Shown piece after piece: positions 2,136-56,800 of a stretch of DNA of 64,000 nt (position 1 is its first letter; the number at the start of each line of letters is the position of its first letter). Origin of the DNA: Amphibalanus amphitrite (Eukaryota > Arthropoda > Thecostraca > Balanomorpha > Balanidae); assembly GCF_019059575.1 (NCBI RefSeq), contig NW_024881789.1, positions 310,001 through 374,000 of the forward strand, read 5' to 3'. The position numbers were made by a program, and so were the translations under genes. A model generated the notes under the pieces. The model saw only the letters and a program-made list of their open reading frames with translations. It did not search any database and had not been told where the DNA came from.

Positions 2136-4179
2136 ACGGTCGGACGGCTAGCCGGTTGGTCGGACGGTTGATCGGTCGGTCAGTCTTTCGATCGGTCGGC
2201 TGACCTGCTGCTGGTCGGTCGGTCGGTTAGTCGGTCGGACAACCGGTCAACCGGCCGGTCAGTTGGTCGGTCGGCGGCTCAAAGTTAGAAGCGCAGGTGC
2301 GGGAGACACGGGCGGCGGGACACGAGCAGAGGGCCACCACCGTCACACAGACAGACATACAGACACCGGGACACCGGAAAGGCACAGATGATGGACAGTG
2401 CCGCATGGCTCTGTGGGGGTGAAGTGCATGTCGGAACAGACGTGTGAAGTGCCGTTGTGGATCGGTGACGGAGTTCTGAGCTCCATGTGGTGTGAATATT
2501 ACCACCACTGCGACTAGTGGTGGAAGTTCGAGGAACTCGGGTACAGGAGTGGAAGGGGAGTTTTGGGAGTGATTTTGGGTATTGTGGGGAAATGCTGCAT
2601 AATATTAAGCACTGATCCTTGTCATAAATGTAGATAATCCTTGATTATCTATCAAATGACCCAGATAACGTTTTACGACATTTTACGCTGAATAGGACGC
2701 GCCAGTTATTGAAGGCACCAGCCTGTCCCCCGACTAATTTACGACCTTGGCTTTCGTATTGTTGTTGTATCTAGTCGTGTCAGTCCTTGCTTCAACGGCC
2801 TGGAAACGGTCGCGCGGTCTTTGCACGCTAATGCAAACAAATGTGCCCAGCGTCCGTTGCGTGTTAAGTAGTTGAGTAATGGCCCGGTAGAGTCAGTAAG
2901 CTACGCGCCTACGCGATAGTGCGAATTTAATTTCCATTGCGTTGCATTTGTATGATGATGACATTAATTGCGTTTCAGGATATTAAATTGCCTTCTTTTC
3001 AATTAATTCCTTTATTAATTTTTATGTTGCTGATTCGTGTAACTTCTTGGCAGTTTATCTCTCCGGCAGAGTATTGATTTGAACGCCCTTGTGACTATAA
3101 ATAACCCTTACCATTTTGTTGATAGTTACCAGACATAAGTGATGGCCTTGGGCAATAATAATCAAATTGTTTGTCAAACATGTAACAATGCCACATTAAA
3201 TATTGAGTACGTCTTTTTTCCTAGTGCTATCCAGTTCTTGTTTGTTTTTAACAGTTTTATCGCGCCCAAAACAGAGCTTTTATTTGTGTTGCAATAACAA
3301 GCCGATGAAAAACTGGGTAGCGAAAACAGCACGGAAAAAACATCAGTAGATCACGCGAGGTGTTGGCCACTTGGCGCGCCCGTTTGACTGCCGTGACCGT
3401 GTCATTATTCATACGGGCGCTGAGGATAACGATCGGCCATGTAAAAACCATGTGGCGGCCAGGGCGGAGCGCCGCGCGGCATCGATCACCGATCGGTGGC
3501 CGCCACCGGCCGCGCCGGCCGCGCCGCCCCTCTGACCTGCCTCTGTGTCCCCGCAGCCGGCGGCGTAGCTCAGTGCTAAGGCAGGTATTCTCGGCGGGGC
3601 CCCTGAGCACGCCGCGCGCACCGCCCGAGCACGTCCGAGCCCCACACCGACTCGGCTGTCCCGTACGGCCGCTCACAGCCCCGCGCACAGCCGCCGCTCC
3701 GCGCCGCTAGGACCCAGCACGCCCGCTCCCAGCACAGCTCCGTATACACTACACAGTACAGATCCAGCACACAACACATACTGAGCACACAACACAGAGC
3801 CAGCATACAACACAGCTCCGCATGCATCACATGCCCACTTTTGCAGCATATTCCTGCATAAAAAAGCCCCGCTGCCAACACAGTTCCTCTGATAGCCAGC
3901 TTCGAGGCTCTGTGCCTCTGGTTTCTAGTTTCTATCCTCCCCCAGACCTCTTTCGCTCCCTCTGCTGACGCTCGATAGCCTCCTCCGAGGTCCCAACCAT
4001 CTCCCTGTCGTCGCTCCCGTCCTAAAGCCTCCCGGTGCCCACCGGGCCGCCTCGGCCGCTCTGCGGTCTCTGCGGCTGTCGTTCGGCCCGGTGGGGGCCG
4101 TCTCAGCCGACACCCGTCGATGCTACGATGGCCACGGCCCCCATTGATCGTCGGCCAGCGCGGCGGAGGCGGTCGCCGG

Positions 4180-6219: not shown

Positions 6220-38209
<31,990 letters not shown>

Positions 38210-50800: not shown

Positions 50801-53800
50801 TCTATGGCAGAATTTAGAGTCCAAAGTTTAACGTGCGCACATAGCCGCGCACGGCCGGTCCCCTCACTGACTTCACCTGGCTACGGCCTGCCACCAACCG
50901 CAACCATACCTGTCAGGAGGCCCATAAATGTCAAGCGCCCGTCGCGCTTCGAACCCGGACTGTTGTAACCGGGAACGCGTGCTCTCACCACGCGGAGTCC
51001 AACGCTCTACCAACTGAGCTACGGGACCGGCAAAACATTGTCACCGAATACAAGAACAACTCACCGTTTTCAGGACCTCCTCCTTCTTATCGGCGGAACA
51101 AATGCCGCAGATGATTTCCACGTTGCCCATGAGTTTCTTCAGACAGGCCTCGTTGGCCTCGCGCGTCTTGGCGGCGATCTCCAGTCGCAGCGCCACGTCC
51201 TCGGCGCCGGCCTTTGGGTCGAACAGTTTGCGGATGTTGCGCAGTTTCTCGTCCGCCTGGTCGAGCAGGTTGACAATGTTCACCTTGCCGTCCTCGAACT
51301 CCTTCCAGGCAGTCTCGTTACCTGTATTGGGAGAGATCGAAAAGGTATTGAGACCCGACGAGATGAGAACGGATGGTAAGGATCAAAACTGGTTAGAATA
51401 GACATACCACCGAAAAAGTTGAAGGTGAATCATTAATGTCATTTAGAATGACTCACAAACATTCTTAACATTTTTTTCAACAGCACTTCATGACTTGCAT
51501 ACGGGTAACAGGGTAGTACACTAGCCCATCTTGTGAGAAACGTCACACTATAGCCGGGCTGCATTTATCACTTTCACATGCTCACGTTTGAGGGTCTCCA
51601 GCTTCTTCTTGGCCTTCTCCTCGGAGTCCTTAAAGAGCTCACTTAGTCCCTTGACCTGCTCCTTGAGGAAGTCGGGACAGTCGGCCTGGCCGGCCAGCTT
51701 CTCGCCGCGTTTGATCAGCTGAGCGAACTCTCCGCGCTTCTCCTCAATCTTGGCGATCACGGCCTCCTGGTTCTCGATGAACGAGGCCACGTGCTCCGTG
51801 CTGTCCGGGTGGATCTGCGCCGGGAGAGGTCAATGACTGAGCTTATTGTATCAGAGAAACCCAGAGGCATGAGTAAGACTGCCTTATTTAAAAGCACTAA
51901 TGTACTTATAAGATGATGATGTAGCAAGATACAAGAAAAAAAACGAAGCGAAATATGTTGATGTAATCAGAGGATCGCTTGCAAGACTGTAGCATCCCCT
52001 ATAATTTATGATAATAATCCTAAAAATTGGAATCTATTAACGCACACTTTACACTTACTTTGACTCCGCAGTCCACACAAAGCCTCCACTGATAATTTAG
52101 CATGCTTGTCCAGCGCAATCAGCTAGCCTTTCTTCGCTATTACTCCGTTCCCGCGAGAATGGCATGCAGCTCACTGGACCAGAGGCGTTCTCTATGTAGA
52201 TACGATACGAGGGTCAATTATAGGCCTACTATGCGCGGATGGCATGGAGGTCAAGTACATACATGCGTCATCTACGAGAGCAAGAGCAGAGTGCAGAGAG
52301 AATGAGAACACCACAACTCTTCTGATCCGCAATAGCGCACGTTTGACACAAACCGCTAACTACGGTTGTAAAAGGTAACTAACAAAAATAATCTAGGCGA
52401 AGACACACCGATGTAAGACTTACCTTTGGACCACCGACAGTGCCTTTCTTTTGCTCGAGCTGTGGTACGAAACATATGGTGCTTAAAATAGACTCAGCAA
52501 TACACATAGTCGACTATCTGAATGAAAATAGCTTATAAGTATGTTGATCAGTCTTTATAGTTAGTTATTTGATCATAACTAACTAAGGTCATTAAAAAAG
52601 CAATAATGAACTTGACTAATGGACCATCATAAGTAGAAGTCTCAATAAGAAACACTATAAAGGTATCGATCAGCTATTTACTTCCGAATCCCCACAGTGT
52701 TGCTGATCTAAAGAATGTAACGGTATCCCCGTTGTCTGACCTCCTCCGTCGATTTGCGACGGAGCTCCTCCAGCAGTTTCACCAGTGGAGTGATATCGTC
52801 CACGTATTGGTAGCAGCGGGAATACACATCGACCTGTGAAAGGACAAAGGTGTGTGAATATGAGCACCTTTGAATAAGTCGTTTAGTGGTAAAATTATCA
52901 GTGCTCATCTGAGTTTTTTTTTGTGAGTTAGTTGGGAAATCAATGGGCTACACCTACATATAAACAGCCTTGACTGATTTCCGTAGACGTCACGCACTGA
53001 CGTACTGACGATTTAGTCGCACTTAACATAATAACTCAGTCGTTTTTAAAGGATCTTACTGACTGGCACTGTCCCACCCTTTATGGCGAACAAGTGGCCA
53101 CCCCTTCCCCTCGAACCTTGCGCATGTTCTCCTCGATTCCTGGCAGCATCTCGATGTGTCGCTGGTGGAGCGCCTCCAGTCGCTTCTTCTCGGCCTCCAG
53201 GCTCTGGTCCGACTTCTGGTTCAGCAGCTTCAGCATGTCGTGCAGCCACTGCTTCACCTCCTCACGCTTCAGGTTCTTGCACTGGTACTGTTGATGAGAG
53301 GAGTAGGGAATATTGATTATTTAGCTGCTAAATGCAGCTAAAACAAGGCGCAGTAACATGCAAGAGACATTGAACGCAATGAAGATAAACGCTTCCAATA
53401 CGAGAGACGTGTCATATACACTGTGCATAACTATGGGCTGTTTAATATAAAAGAAAGGTTTTAATGCAAAAAGATATGTTTTAATGCTTCCGTTCAGACG
53501 GTACTGAGAAGTAAGCCTTATATGAGGAGACACAGCATTGAACGTTATTCTGTTCTGGACCCGGCATTCTGGACTGCTCGATTTAGCAGAACTCCAGTCC
53601 AGTTCCTTCCTTGTGATGTCAGTAATAGCCGGACGCCTGGCGCATGCTGTGCCGCAATGCTCACCAGTATCTGTTCCAGCCGCTAGATGTCCCTACCAGT
53701 TGTGCGCCTGGTGCATGCTGTGCCGCATGACTTAGTAGTCCCTATTCCAGCCGCTAGATGTCTAGCAGTCATGTGCCTGGAGCATGCTGTGCCGCAATAC

Positions 53801-56800
53801 TTAGGCAGCATTGTAGTCCCTATTCCAGCCGCTAGATGTCTAGCAGTCATGCGCCTGGCGCATGCTGTGCCGCAATGCTCACCAGTATCTGTTCCAGCCG
53901 CTAGATGTCCCTACCAGTTGTGCGCCTGGTGCATGCTGTGCCGCATGACTATCGACTTAGTTCCTATTCCAGCCGCTAGATGTCTGGCAGTCATGCGCCT
54001 GGCGCATGCTGGCCGCAATGCTCACCAGTATCTGTTCCAGCCGCTAGATGTCCCTACCAGTTGTGCGCCTGGTGCATGCTGTGCCGCATGACTATCGACT
54101 TAGTTCCTATTCCAGCCGCTAGATGTCTAGCAGTCATGCGCCTGGCGCATGCTGTGCCGCAATACTAAGGCAGCATTGTCTACTCCATTCGTGCGCCTGA
54201 CGCATGCTGTGTCGCAATGCTTAATAGTTTCTATTCCAGCCGCTAGATGTCTATCGTAGTCGGACGCCTAATGCATGCTGTGCCGCAGTGCTTTGTAGCT
54301 GATATTCTAGCCACTAGGTGCCTGTGTAGCAGTCGTGCGCCTGGAGCATGCTGTGCCGCAGTGCTCAGTAGTGTCTGTTCCAGCCGCTAGATGTCCCTAC
54401 CAGTTGTGCGCCTGGTGCATGCTGTGCCGCATGATTTTTGACTTAGTTCCTATTCCAGCCGCGAGATGTCCCTTCTAGTCGAACGCCTGGTACATGCTGT
54501 GCCGCATTACAAGGTTTGAATAGCTTCTATTCCAGCCGCTAGATGTCTAGCAGTCGTGCGCCTGGAGCATGCTGTGCCGCAGTGCTCAGTAGTGTCTGTT
54601 CCAGCCGCTAGATGTCCCTACCAGTCGTACGCCTGGCGTATGCTGTGCCGCATAACAATTGGCTCTTGCCGCGGTCACCGCACCGCAGCAGAACAACACC
54701 TCGGCTCGTAACTTGCAGTGGCACGCAGCGGGTTGGCGACGCGTGCCACGCCGCTCGAACTGGGGCCAGGACCTGTCCACCAGCACGTGCACGGAATACC
54801 GGCCCCGGTGACACACTGCACTGAATACCGGCCTGAGGTCCGGCAAGGTCGCCGAATGCCTCGCACGGTCACTGAATATGAGTCGATAACTTACTCCGTA
54901 GTAAGTTAGTAGCAACTGGGTACAATGCCGTGATGCGTAATCGTAAAGTCGCTGATAGCTCGACGTCCCAATGCAGAGCCGCATGATAGGTCATGACCTT
55001 CACGAATTACAATAAATACATGTTCACCGACTTGATCTTACGAATTTTGACACTGAATGCCATGTTAAGTAGCCATGCCTATGCAATATCTGCTCATATC
55101 AAATATTTTAACACACAAGGTTATGAGTATCAGTTGCATTTACTTCTCGTAGTTTTCGCTCGTCTTATAGTTTTATGTAAAGCGTATAGATGCTGATTAT
55201 TTAGGGACATATTTGTGTTATGAGGTTATCGGTGGAGCCAACAAATAACTAAATGCACTATCATATTTCTGTTTTAGTTGCTCTGGTGCCGATGTAGGGA
55301 GAACTTGCTCTGCAATGCAGTCCTTTAGAAACTTGAGACGATTCATTCTACTGGAGATCTTTTTCTTAAATTAAATTCTTTCATTACTGTACTTGGGCCG
55401 CCACCGTCACCTTCAGACAGATGCTGATTATTTAGGGACATATTTGTGTTATGAGGTTATTGGTGGAGCCAACAAATAACTAAATGCACTTACTTTTATT
55501 GACGTTTCGGTTTCAAACAACCTTCGTCAGAATAGAATTACAAGTTACGTCTCATATTTCAAAAATGCACATATTTCTGTGTTAGTTGCTCTGGTGCCGA
55601 TGTAGGGAGAACTTGCTCTGCAATGCAGTCCTTTAGAAACTTGAGACGATTCATTCTACTGGAGATCTTTTTTCTTAAATTAAATTCTTTCATTACTGTA
55701 CTTGGGCCGCCACCGTCACCTTCAGACAGATGCTGATTATTTAGGGACATATTTGTGTTATGAGGTTATCGGTGGAGCCAACAAATAACTAAATGCACTT
55801 ACTTTTATTGACGTTTCGGTTTCAAACAACCTTCGTCAGAATAGAATTACAAGTTACGTCTCATATTTCAAAAATGCACATATTAACCTCATAACACAAA
55901 TATGTCCCTAAATAATCAGCATCTGTCTGAAGGTGACGGTGGCGGCCCAAGTACAGTAATGAAAGAATTTAATTTAAGAAAAAAGATCTCCAGTAGAATG
56001 AATCGTCTCAAGTTTCTAAAGGACTGCATTGCAGAGCAAGTTCTCCCTACATCGGCACCAGAGCAACTAAAACAGAAATATGTGCATTTTTGAAATATGA
56101 GAGGTAACTTGTAATTCTATTCTGACGAAGGTTATTTGAAACCGAAACGTCAATAAAAGTAAGTGCATTTAGTTATTTGTTGGCTCCACCGATAACCTCA
56201 TAACACAAATATGTCCCTAAATAATCAGCATCTGTCTGAAGGTGACGGTGGCGGCCCAAGTACAGTAATGAAAGAATTTAATTTAAGAAAAAAGATCTCC
56301 AGTAGAATGAATCGTCTCAAGTTTCTAAAGGACTGCATTGCAGAGCAAGTTCTCCCTACATCGGCACCAGAGCAACTAAAACAGAAATATGTGCATTTTT
56401 GAAATATGAGACGTAACTTGTAGTTCTATTCTGACGAAGGTTGTTTGAAACCGAAACGTCAATAAAAGTAAGTGCATTTAGTTATTTGTTGGCTCCACCG
56501 ATAACCTCATAAAGCGTATAGCTTATATAGTATCCTCAAACTAATCAACCATTACTTTGCTGGGTCCCTGCTCTCTGGAGTCTTGACAGTGGACACCGAC
56601 CGACGCCCTAACGGCTGACAAGTCACCGGGCATAGTGAAACTTATCTTCGATCGTGAATCAACAATGGAAAGCGCAATACAATATAACCGGTCACCGGAT
56701 ATCAGATTCAGCCCTATGAAGGGTCGCTGCATGGCGCATGCTATGCGCCCCGACTTCGAGCCTATCATGTCAAATCTTTCAATGTCAAGCCATATAAGTT

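Follow-up and report, generated by a model that had tools for sequence, protein, structure and literature searches.

How does a short sequence that is repeated several times, and that encodes no reverse transcriptase of its own, come to lie in a genome as two opposed arms enclosed by one and the same 12-mer, and did the array grow in place or arrive whole? The question is raised by a locus in the window, the stretch of 64,000 nucleotides from Amphibalanus amphitrite analyzed here. An earlier note on this DNA had read the array as an inverted concatemer of Penelope-like units that was inserted as one event, had considered it young, had pointed to hammerhead-like motifs and had proposed a small non-autonomous element that moves as multimers; it had also suggested a search of the genome for an autonomous Penelope element with a matching pLTR and for other multimers. 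We conclude that the array is very probably the product of a single Penelope-like retrotransposition event, in which an end-joined, short 5′ RNA of a Penelope-like element (PLE) would have served as the template. The integration of PLEs is still a largely open subject and, judged by its sequence, the locus holds a genuine PLE insertion, recent and clearly resolved, whose unusual form provides evidence on it.

Architecture of the Insertion

The insert measures 1,320 bp (55190-56509) and is flanked on both sides by TAAAGCGTATAG, so that the whole array occupies 55178-56521; this 12-mer occurs exactly twice in the 64 kb, both strands having been searched. The repeated unit is 309 bp long (GC 37.9%), with direct repeats spaced by 309 as well as inverted partners, and the concatemer described in the earlier note was confirmed in all of its parts: the direct repeats, the inverted partners and TAAAGCGTATAG at both edges. 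Each arm holds slightly more than two units, and the arms abut head-to-head at 55884 (Table 1). Unit positions are given relative to the predicted cleavage site of the hammerhead. On this scale, the right arm starts at position 42 and, after two full units, reaches its end at 49-52; the left arm starts at position 235, passes through two units up to about 240, skips the hammerhead to resume at position 12, and stops at 80-82. It is the leftmost repeat that carries no hammerhead, with 4 nt in place of 82 nt between two GTGCATTT repeats; it also contains a 1-nt frameshift.

The arms meet out of phase, position 235 of one facing position 42 of the other with 1 nt in common, and their inner ends lie 116 nt apart within the unit; they are therefore not mirror copies of each other, and alignment shows them to be different copies. 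All four unit-to-unit junctions fall at the identical base with zero added nucleotides, one copy having a substitution nearby, and the inner end of the left arm lies within 2 nt of the pLTR side of this junction. Leaving the hammerhead jump aside, five substitutions and one single-base indel distinguish the copies, each private to one of them, and the three 63-aa frames differ solely by one Lys/Thr exchange. Such near-identity supports the view, already taken in the earlier note, that the array is young.

Table 1. Features of the array, in positions of the window (., no strand).
Feature	Position	Strand	Remark
Left target-site duplication TAAAGCGTATAG	55178..55189	.	Last 2 nt (AG) also fit the unit
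Left arm, cDNA-type copy	55190..55884	-	Outer end at putative RT-initiation site 2 (unit position 80-82, 'tail' end)
Hammerhead-skipping jump, outermost left repeat	55251..55270	-	Position 240 joined to position 12, with extra ATA/GATA, at GTGCATTT repeats
Left-arm unit-to-unit junctions (n = 2)	55577/55578, 55269/55270	-	
Predicted minimal hammerhead core	55501..55530	-	
63-aa frame, Thr variant	55559..55750	-	Truncated N-terminus of the PLE ORF
Predicted minimal hammerhead core	55810..55839	-	
Head-to-head arm junction	55884..55884	.	1 nt shared, no palindrome; unit position 235 against 42
Right arm, cDNA-type copy	55884..56509	+	Outer end at putative RT-initiation site 1 (unit position 49-52)
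63-aa frame	55902..56093	+	First 57-58 codons of the PLE ORF, then into the pLTR
Right-arm unit-to-unit junction AAAACA/GAAATATG	56074..56075	+	PLE ORF nt 173 joined to pLTR start
Predicted minimal hammerhead core	56122..56151	+	
63-aa frame, second copy	56211..56402	+	
Right-arm unit-to-unit junction, second copy	56383..56384	+	
Predicted minimal hammerhead core	56431..56460	+	
Right target-site duplication TAAAGCGTATAG	56510..56521	.	First 3 nt (TAA) also fit the unit

The surrounding window holds further repeats. A 71/143-bp tandem repeat (CGCCTGGTGCATGCTGTGCCGCA...) lies immediately left of the insertion at 53634-54652, and farther away are a 67/134-bp minisatellite rich in GC and an almost perfect run of about 200 GA (26993-27839 and 33093-33492). 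An amino-acid transporter and a CAPS C2 domain were recognizable among the ten window frames scanned, in keeping with animal DNA.

Origin of the 309-nt Unit

The genome used for comparison was the host's own assembly (G000, 807.6 Mb). Its contig C220 carries a tandem PLE (L012) with a period of 2,558 nt and a 780-aa open frame, and the unit is 98.7% identical to positions 1663-1971 of this locus across all 309 nt. An autonomous element with the same 5′ end is thus present in the host genome, which bears out the description of the unit as Penelope-like and provides the relative with a matching pLTR that had been proposed as a target of the search. The 780-aa frame matches RVT_1 in Pfam (3e-11), and its best PDB match, a weak one (0.004), is telomerase reverse transcriptase; no GIY-YIG match was obtained in Pfam up to an E-value of 10, and a CGGCHKKYIGETGRGLKTRLTEH stretch in the C-terminus has what we take to be a resemblance to the PLE endonuclease motif.

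By this alignment, the unit is shown to be the contiguous first 309 nt of a PLE, consisting of the hammerhead-bearing pLTR plus 173 nt of the ORF, and its 3′ end is joined to its 5′ end (AAAACA to GAAATATG) with no shared bases. The 63-aa frame was identified solely by way of the host genome, as the N-terminus of the L012 ORF; the 63-68-aa frame has no match in Pfam or PDB and none, by BLASTP, to the ORF start of the Anolis PLE. L012 deviates at subfamily positions where the unit agrees with other copies (L013, L015, L016, L017, and L029) and is therefore not the direct source of the unit. We also considered whether ORF nucleotide 173 might be the counterpart of the 172-nt RNA minimum of the Anolis element and dropped the idea, as the frame starts differ relative to the hammerhead.

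The ORF part of the unit gave 16 candidate sites in the genome, all of which were scored: four at the locus, one in L012 and 11 in other elements at 73-78% identity. The unit junction, with up to two mismatches allowed, occurs three times in the genome, every time at this locus; the fourth copy is broken by the hammerhead-skipping jump and hence lies outside these matches. Within the reach of the search, the 309-nt multimer belongs to a single locus of this assembly and does not form a dispersed family. The suggestion of a small non-autonomous element moving as multimers is not supported: within these limits the junction was found nowhere else, and the ORF part, besides the 73-78% relatives, was found only here and in one full-length PLE.

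The Hammerhead Motif

The core CTGACGA-A-GGTT(6-nt loop)AACC-GAAACGTC is kept in four of the five repeats of the array. The exact pattern was absent from all 100 dinucleotide shuffles of the window and, with three mismatches allowed, the shuffles gave a mean of 0.02 and a maximum of 1; the hammerhead-like motifs noticed earlier can be specified as four minimal cores. Helix III is absent from the predicted hammerhead, GAAACGTC following directly, and both CTGACGA and GAAACGTC are intact in 28 of 28 aligned arms from 17 other loci. RNAfold, applied to the isolated strand, favors a structure other than the hammerhead. No Rfam hammerhead model matches the locus, and at the gathering threshold the whole window is without any Rfam match; ten matches at the locus under an E-value threshold (to microRNA-precursor and other models) all lay below the gathering scores and were judged to reflect the long inverted repeat and to be spurious.

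The point at which the units are joined end to end lies 77 nt upstream of the predicted cleavage site. It was therefore not produced by hammerhead cleavage, so that hammerhead processing is not needed for the model proposed below; a role of the hammerhead in the formation of the array is unproven, and its activity is a prediction only.

Scans of viral and GTDB sequences for the core or the frame returned no relative (loop of 4-16 nt in the widest scan). Two of the core scans had the loop fixed at 11 nt against 10 in the core of the locus, and another used a fixed spacing unlike that of the locus core, which put the exact form out of reach of all three; the match from this last scan (L001) sits in an apparent phage terminase gene and was set aside. 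Another match, in Pedobacter (L002), was obtained with the loop fixed at 11 nt, and a third, from the scan with a loop of 4-16 nt (L003), was judged from 300 bases of sequence to be due to chance. The protein scan for the frame in the same collections gave zero confirmed matches.

Other Insertions of the Family

We fetched 34 loci, 28 of which have two arms; after loci with shared flanks were merged (L013 with L014, L019-L025 as one, L026 with L030, L037 with L038), 19 independent insertions were left, or 20 with the studied locus, while L018, L031, L036, L042, L043, and L045 were left out of this set. As 40 of 153 and 40 of 193 candidates were scored, the PLE counts for the genome are lower bounds. 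A second round with wider flanks took up L031 again (as L063), L045 (as L064) and L043, L042, and L036 (as L065, L066, and L067) and added two new loci, L068 on C1131 and L069 on C763.

A target duplication of 8-15 bp is present in all 20 independent two-armed insertions and is exactly 12 bp long in 11. Chance duplications in 380 flank-swapped controls did not exceed 8 bp, which was reached twice and is also the length in two of the 20. Each of the 20 has one outer end at unit position 29-57 and a second, on the opposite arm, at 65-85; L033 is the borderline pair (57/65), and the value of 85 for L037 comes from a match of poor quality. Random pairing of 20 long and 20 short ends would give an all-mixed outcome with p = 7.6e-6, a value calculated for a threshold set post hoc. 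The wider flanks contributed three more cases (L063, L068, and L069, with duplications of 12, 12, and 13 bp), again with one short and one long end each. Thus, the rule of one short and one long end applies to 23 of 23 two-armed insertions with a duplication (8-15 bp, 12 bp in 13 of them), the studied locus included, and one of the others (L027) has ends that are identical to those of the studied locus to the base, with a different duplication. As for the remaining loci, L064 carries an arm at each of the start sites and no duplication that could be found, L065, L066, and L067 have neither a second arm at a start site nor a detectable duplication, and L018, whose flanks are common to the L019 group, has lost its other arm.

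Across the family, the two end sites lie about 30 nt apart, and by analogy they would correspond to the start sites of reverse transcription that define the PLE "tail." The insert under study can be seen to bear the signature of the family in its sequence: outward arms, two fixed outer ends (one per arm) and a duplication of about 12 bp.

The inner ends are more varied. At least one arm runs upstream of the pLTR start into the 3′ region of the element in 17 of the 19 other insertions, while at the studied locus the arms reach ORF nucleotide 173 instead, four times. The inner ends of the two arms lie within 11 nt of each other in 13 of the 19 others and in two of the three added insertions, and are asymmetric in the rest (6/19 and 1/3); in several insertions they lie near the 5′ boundary of the unit. 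Elsewhere in the family the end points of the cDNAs vary by tens of nucleotides, and fillers at the junctions are frequent and often palindromic.

Some of these loci have peculiarities of their own. The filler at the inner junction of L019 consists of nested palindromes, and that of L028 is an AT-rich stretch of about 200 nt; both have the look of products of snap-back synthesis that occurred repeatedly. In L063 (C465:191300-201200), a left arm of 23 nt that is tail only (7493-7515) stands opposite a right arm of about 1.5 kb, within a 12-bp duplication. L018-L025 share near-identical flanks (hundreds of bp to about 1 kb, 97-100%) on eight contigs, and their pair of pLTRs probably sits in another repeat that spread later; in L020, about 8 kb of extra sequence separates the arms.

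Full-Length Arrays in Other Families

Although no other multimer of the 309-nt unit was found, the search for multimers did uncover an array of full-length elements from a second PLE family: a head-to-head concatemer of 12.4 kb with a unit of 2,755 nt (C298:508976-521332; L054, L055, and L060). Its left arm (8.77 kb) consists of three full units and its right arm of one, with a 24-nt tail on one arm, and the whole lies inside a 12-bp duplication, TCTTTCACCACC. The center of the array, 366 nt long, matches nothing else within the fetched stretch. An inverted concatemer that appears to have been inserted as one event has thus been seen in two cases, from two PLE families. The idea that the 309-nt array, too, arrived as one event is sustained by its duplication, by its ends at the start sites of the family and by this parallel with a duplication of equal length.

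A one-base homopolymer indel at alignment column 2363 alternates among the units of the C298 array, in a pattern that is equal in both arms when read from the outside; as a weak hint, this pattern may fit a linear multimer template slightly better than a one-unit circle. For another array, on C215 (L056 and L062), a target duplication was looked for and not found. On C44, L058 (C44:1387000-1391000) contains a simple repeat of about 110 bp (coding for a Tyr-Ile run, at about 3455-3571) between two repeated PLE stretches.

Discussion

We propose that a PLE protein made a staggered break in the target DNA and that both DNA ends then served as primers on a PLE RNA, whose two neighboring start sites were used for reverse transcription. 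Each cDNA would have been extended over more than two 309-nt units in a row until it met the other head-to-head, on a template consisting of a short 5′ PLE RNA with joined ends. The 116-nt offset of the inner ends, the one shared base and the loss of the hammerhead from the left arm only mean that neither arm is a simple copy of the other, and two independent cDNAs look like the simplest reading of the insertion.

An alternative for the inverted arms is self-priming, in which one cDNA snaps back and copies itself, as has been suggested for Penelope (PMC3846280). Symmetric arms, with inner ends within 11 nt in 13 of the 19 others and in two of the three added insertions, and the palindromic fillers would suit such fold-back in the family; at this locus, however, the arms meet out of phase, share a single nucleotide and differ in their outermost hammerhead, so that fold-back is refuted by the sequence here unless the hammerhead was lost and the junction trimmed after insertion, which makes it a very improbable explanation. 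Tandem growth in place, a local inversion or an error of assembly has to be considered as well. Repeats and inversions are classic assembly problems, but the exact duplication at both outer edges, the ends at the standard start sites of the family and the copy-specific differences leave explanations of this group scarcely credible. The same low standing, if not quite so low, falls to a non-LTR retrozyme, that is, to dispersed non-autonomous tandem repeats with hammerheads that spread as circular RNA: a 309-bp unit with a GC of 0.379, a hammerhead in four of five repeats and a target-site duplication (TSD) recall those elements (cf. PMC7229834), but the junction was found at one locus only, its unit is an uninterrupted 5′ segment of an autonomous PLE with the ORF start included, and its hammerhead is of the minimal PLE form, which matches no Rfam hammerhead model.

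What form the joined template took is harder to say. Our leading candidate, in which we have about as much confidence as doubt, is a short 5′ PLE RNA closed into a circle by the joining of its ends; we prefer it because the four junctions fall at the same base without additions and because no other such array was found in the assembly. Asymmetric inner ends occur elsewhere in the family too, so that asymmetry alone is no proof of a circle, and an argument from arm lengths that come near to whole units (2 x 309 + 11 on the right and, after the jump, 2 x 309 + about 6 on the left) was dropped, the left inner end being at a place where other insertions also stop. Without a circle, the reverse transcriptase might have jumped from end to end, copying several identical linear 309-nt PLE RNAs in series. 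The inner ends of several insertions near the 5′ boundary of the unit, perhaps the 5′ end of the RNA, would agree with this, as would the stop of the left arm within 2 nt of that presumed end, just as a linear RNA predicts, and the fillers common in the family; yet four junctions at one base without additions are set against cDNA ends that vary by tens of nucleotides elsewhere, and we consider serial jumping unlikely, if far from implausible. Less probable again is a multimeric RNA transcribed from an older 309-nt array that is absent from the assembly. Tandem full-length PLE loci do exist, so tandem transcripts are plausible, and the true source is missing in any case, L012 being the sole full-length relative found with this ORF start and differing from the unit; but the junction was found only at the studied locus with up to two mismatches, the ORF part gave no match above 73-78% beyond it and that one PLE, no variant is common to two copies, and the first such array would still require a separate origin.

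Returning to the circle, a more specific version of the proposal is two-sided, rolling-circle target-primed reverse transcription, in which a circle was copied more than twice by two complexes from one staggered break; we offer this as a tentative scheme, possible rather than probable. The short 5′ RNA would in that case have been closed at a junction other than the hammerhead cleavage site, and arms of nearly two units would be compatible with a single complete turn around a dimeric circle. The rule that a short end is paired with a long one would reflect a protein dimer that gives each DNA end a start site of its own.

The locus can thus be taken as a readable record of PLE integration, in which both broken ends appear to have been extended in opposite directions from the same short piece of RNA, and it favors two independent cDNAs over fold-back for its inverted structure. 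That each insertion with a duplication uses both start sites, one in either arm (23 of 23), is directly testable with the in vitro assay already described. Should the template have been circular, the locus would also bear on the question, left by PMC7761336, of which machinery from a retroelement inserts copies of small circular RNAs into the genomes of animals.

Comparison with Known Systems

The closest relatives in structure are PLEs that are already described. In the work on Poseidon of Anolis, a 2024 paper that presents the first full-length PLE protein with activity in vitro, both strands of the DNA are cut and extended by the protein, two adjacent internal start sites define an optional tail of 30-40 bp, and hammerhead mutants insert normally (PMC11167929). 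The start sites showed no difference between top and bottom strand there (PMC11167929), a result that, by analogy, does not by itself predict one start site per DNA end. The PLEs of rotifers show pLTRs in head-to-head inversion, one of which bears a 31-bp tail, and a TSD of 9 bp (PMC3846280); the architecture itself is therefore already known. The locus shares with Poseidon and with Pen of Adineta vaga the pLTR and its head-to-head inversion, the optional tail of about 30 nt on one arm, a short TSD and tandem units, and with Poseidon also the minimal hammerhead, in an element for which cleavage and extension of both strands have been demonstrated (PMC11167929, PMC3846280). It differs from both in that its unit comprises the first 309 nt only, without reverse transcriptase and endonuclease, with more than two repeats per arm; in the portions of the two descriptions considered here we met no short-unit array (PMC11167929, PMC3846280).

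Animal non-LTR retrozymes resemble the locus in unit length, low GC, tandem hammerheads and a TSD of more than 4 bp, and copying over several turns has been proposed for them: circular templates would be read more than once, with PLEs suggested as helpers (PMC7229834, PMC7761336). According to the review, animal retrozymes carry no motif that reveals their helper, and the minimal hammerhead without helix III is ascribed to Penelope-like elements (PMC7761336). In the main text of PMC7229834, the word "inverted" is absent, and titles and abstracts on retrozymes and on non-autonomous or multimeric Penelope products in the open-licence literature yielded no report of a short-unit head-to-head concatemer. 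In contrast to retrozymes, whose mark is a canonical type I hammerhead with helix III in dispersed, multi-copy, non-coding tandem repeats, the locus has a minimal hammerhead, is the only one at which the junction was found, contains the start of a PLE coding sequence and has inverted arms. Retrozymes are further characterized by loop-loop contacts within that hammerhead and by their expression as circular RNA. What it has in common with PLE insertions is a source with a PLE-type reverse transcriptase, inverted pLTRs with a TSD, a tail of about 30 nt and the minimal hammerhead.

A further parallel is the twin priming of L1, in which two cDNAs made from both sides of one break give a head-to-head insert. 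The PLE start sites differ from that case in being internal and fixed, and at this locus the template would have been traversed more than twice.
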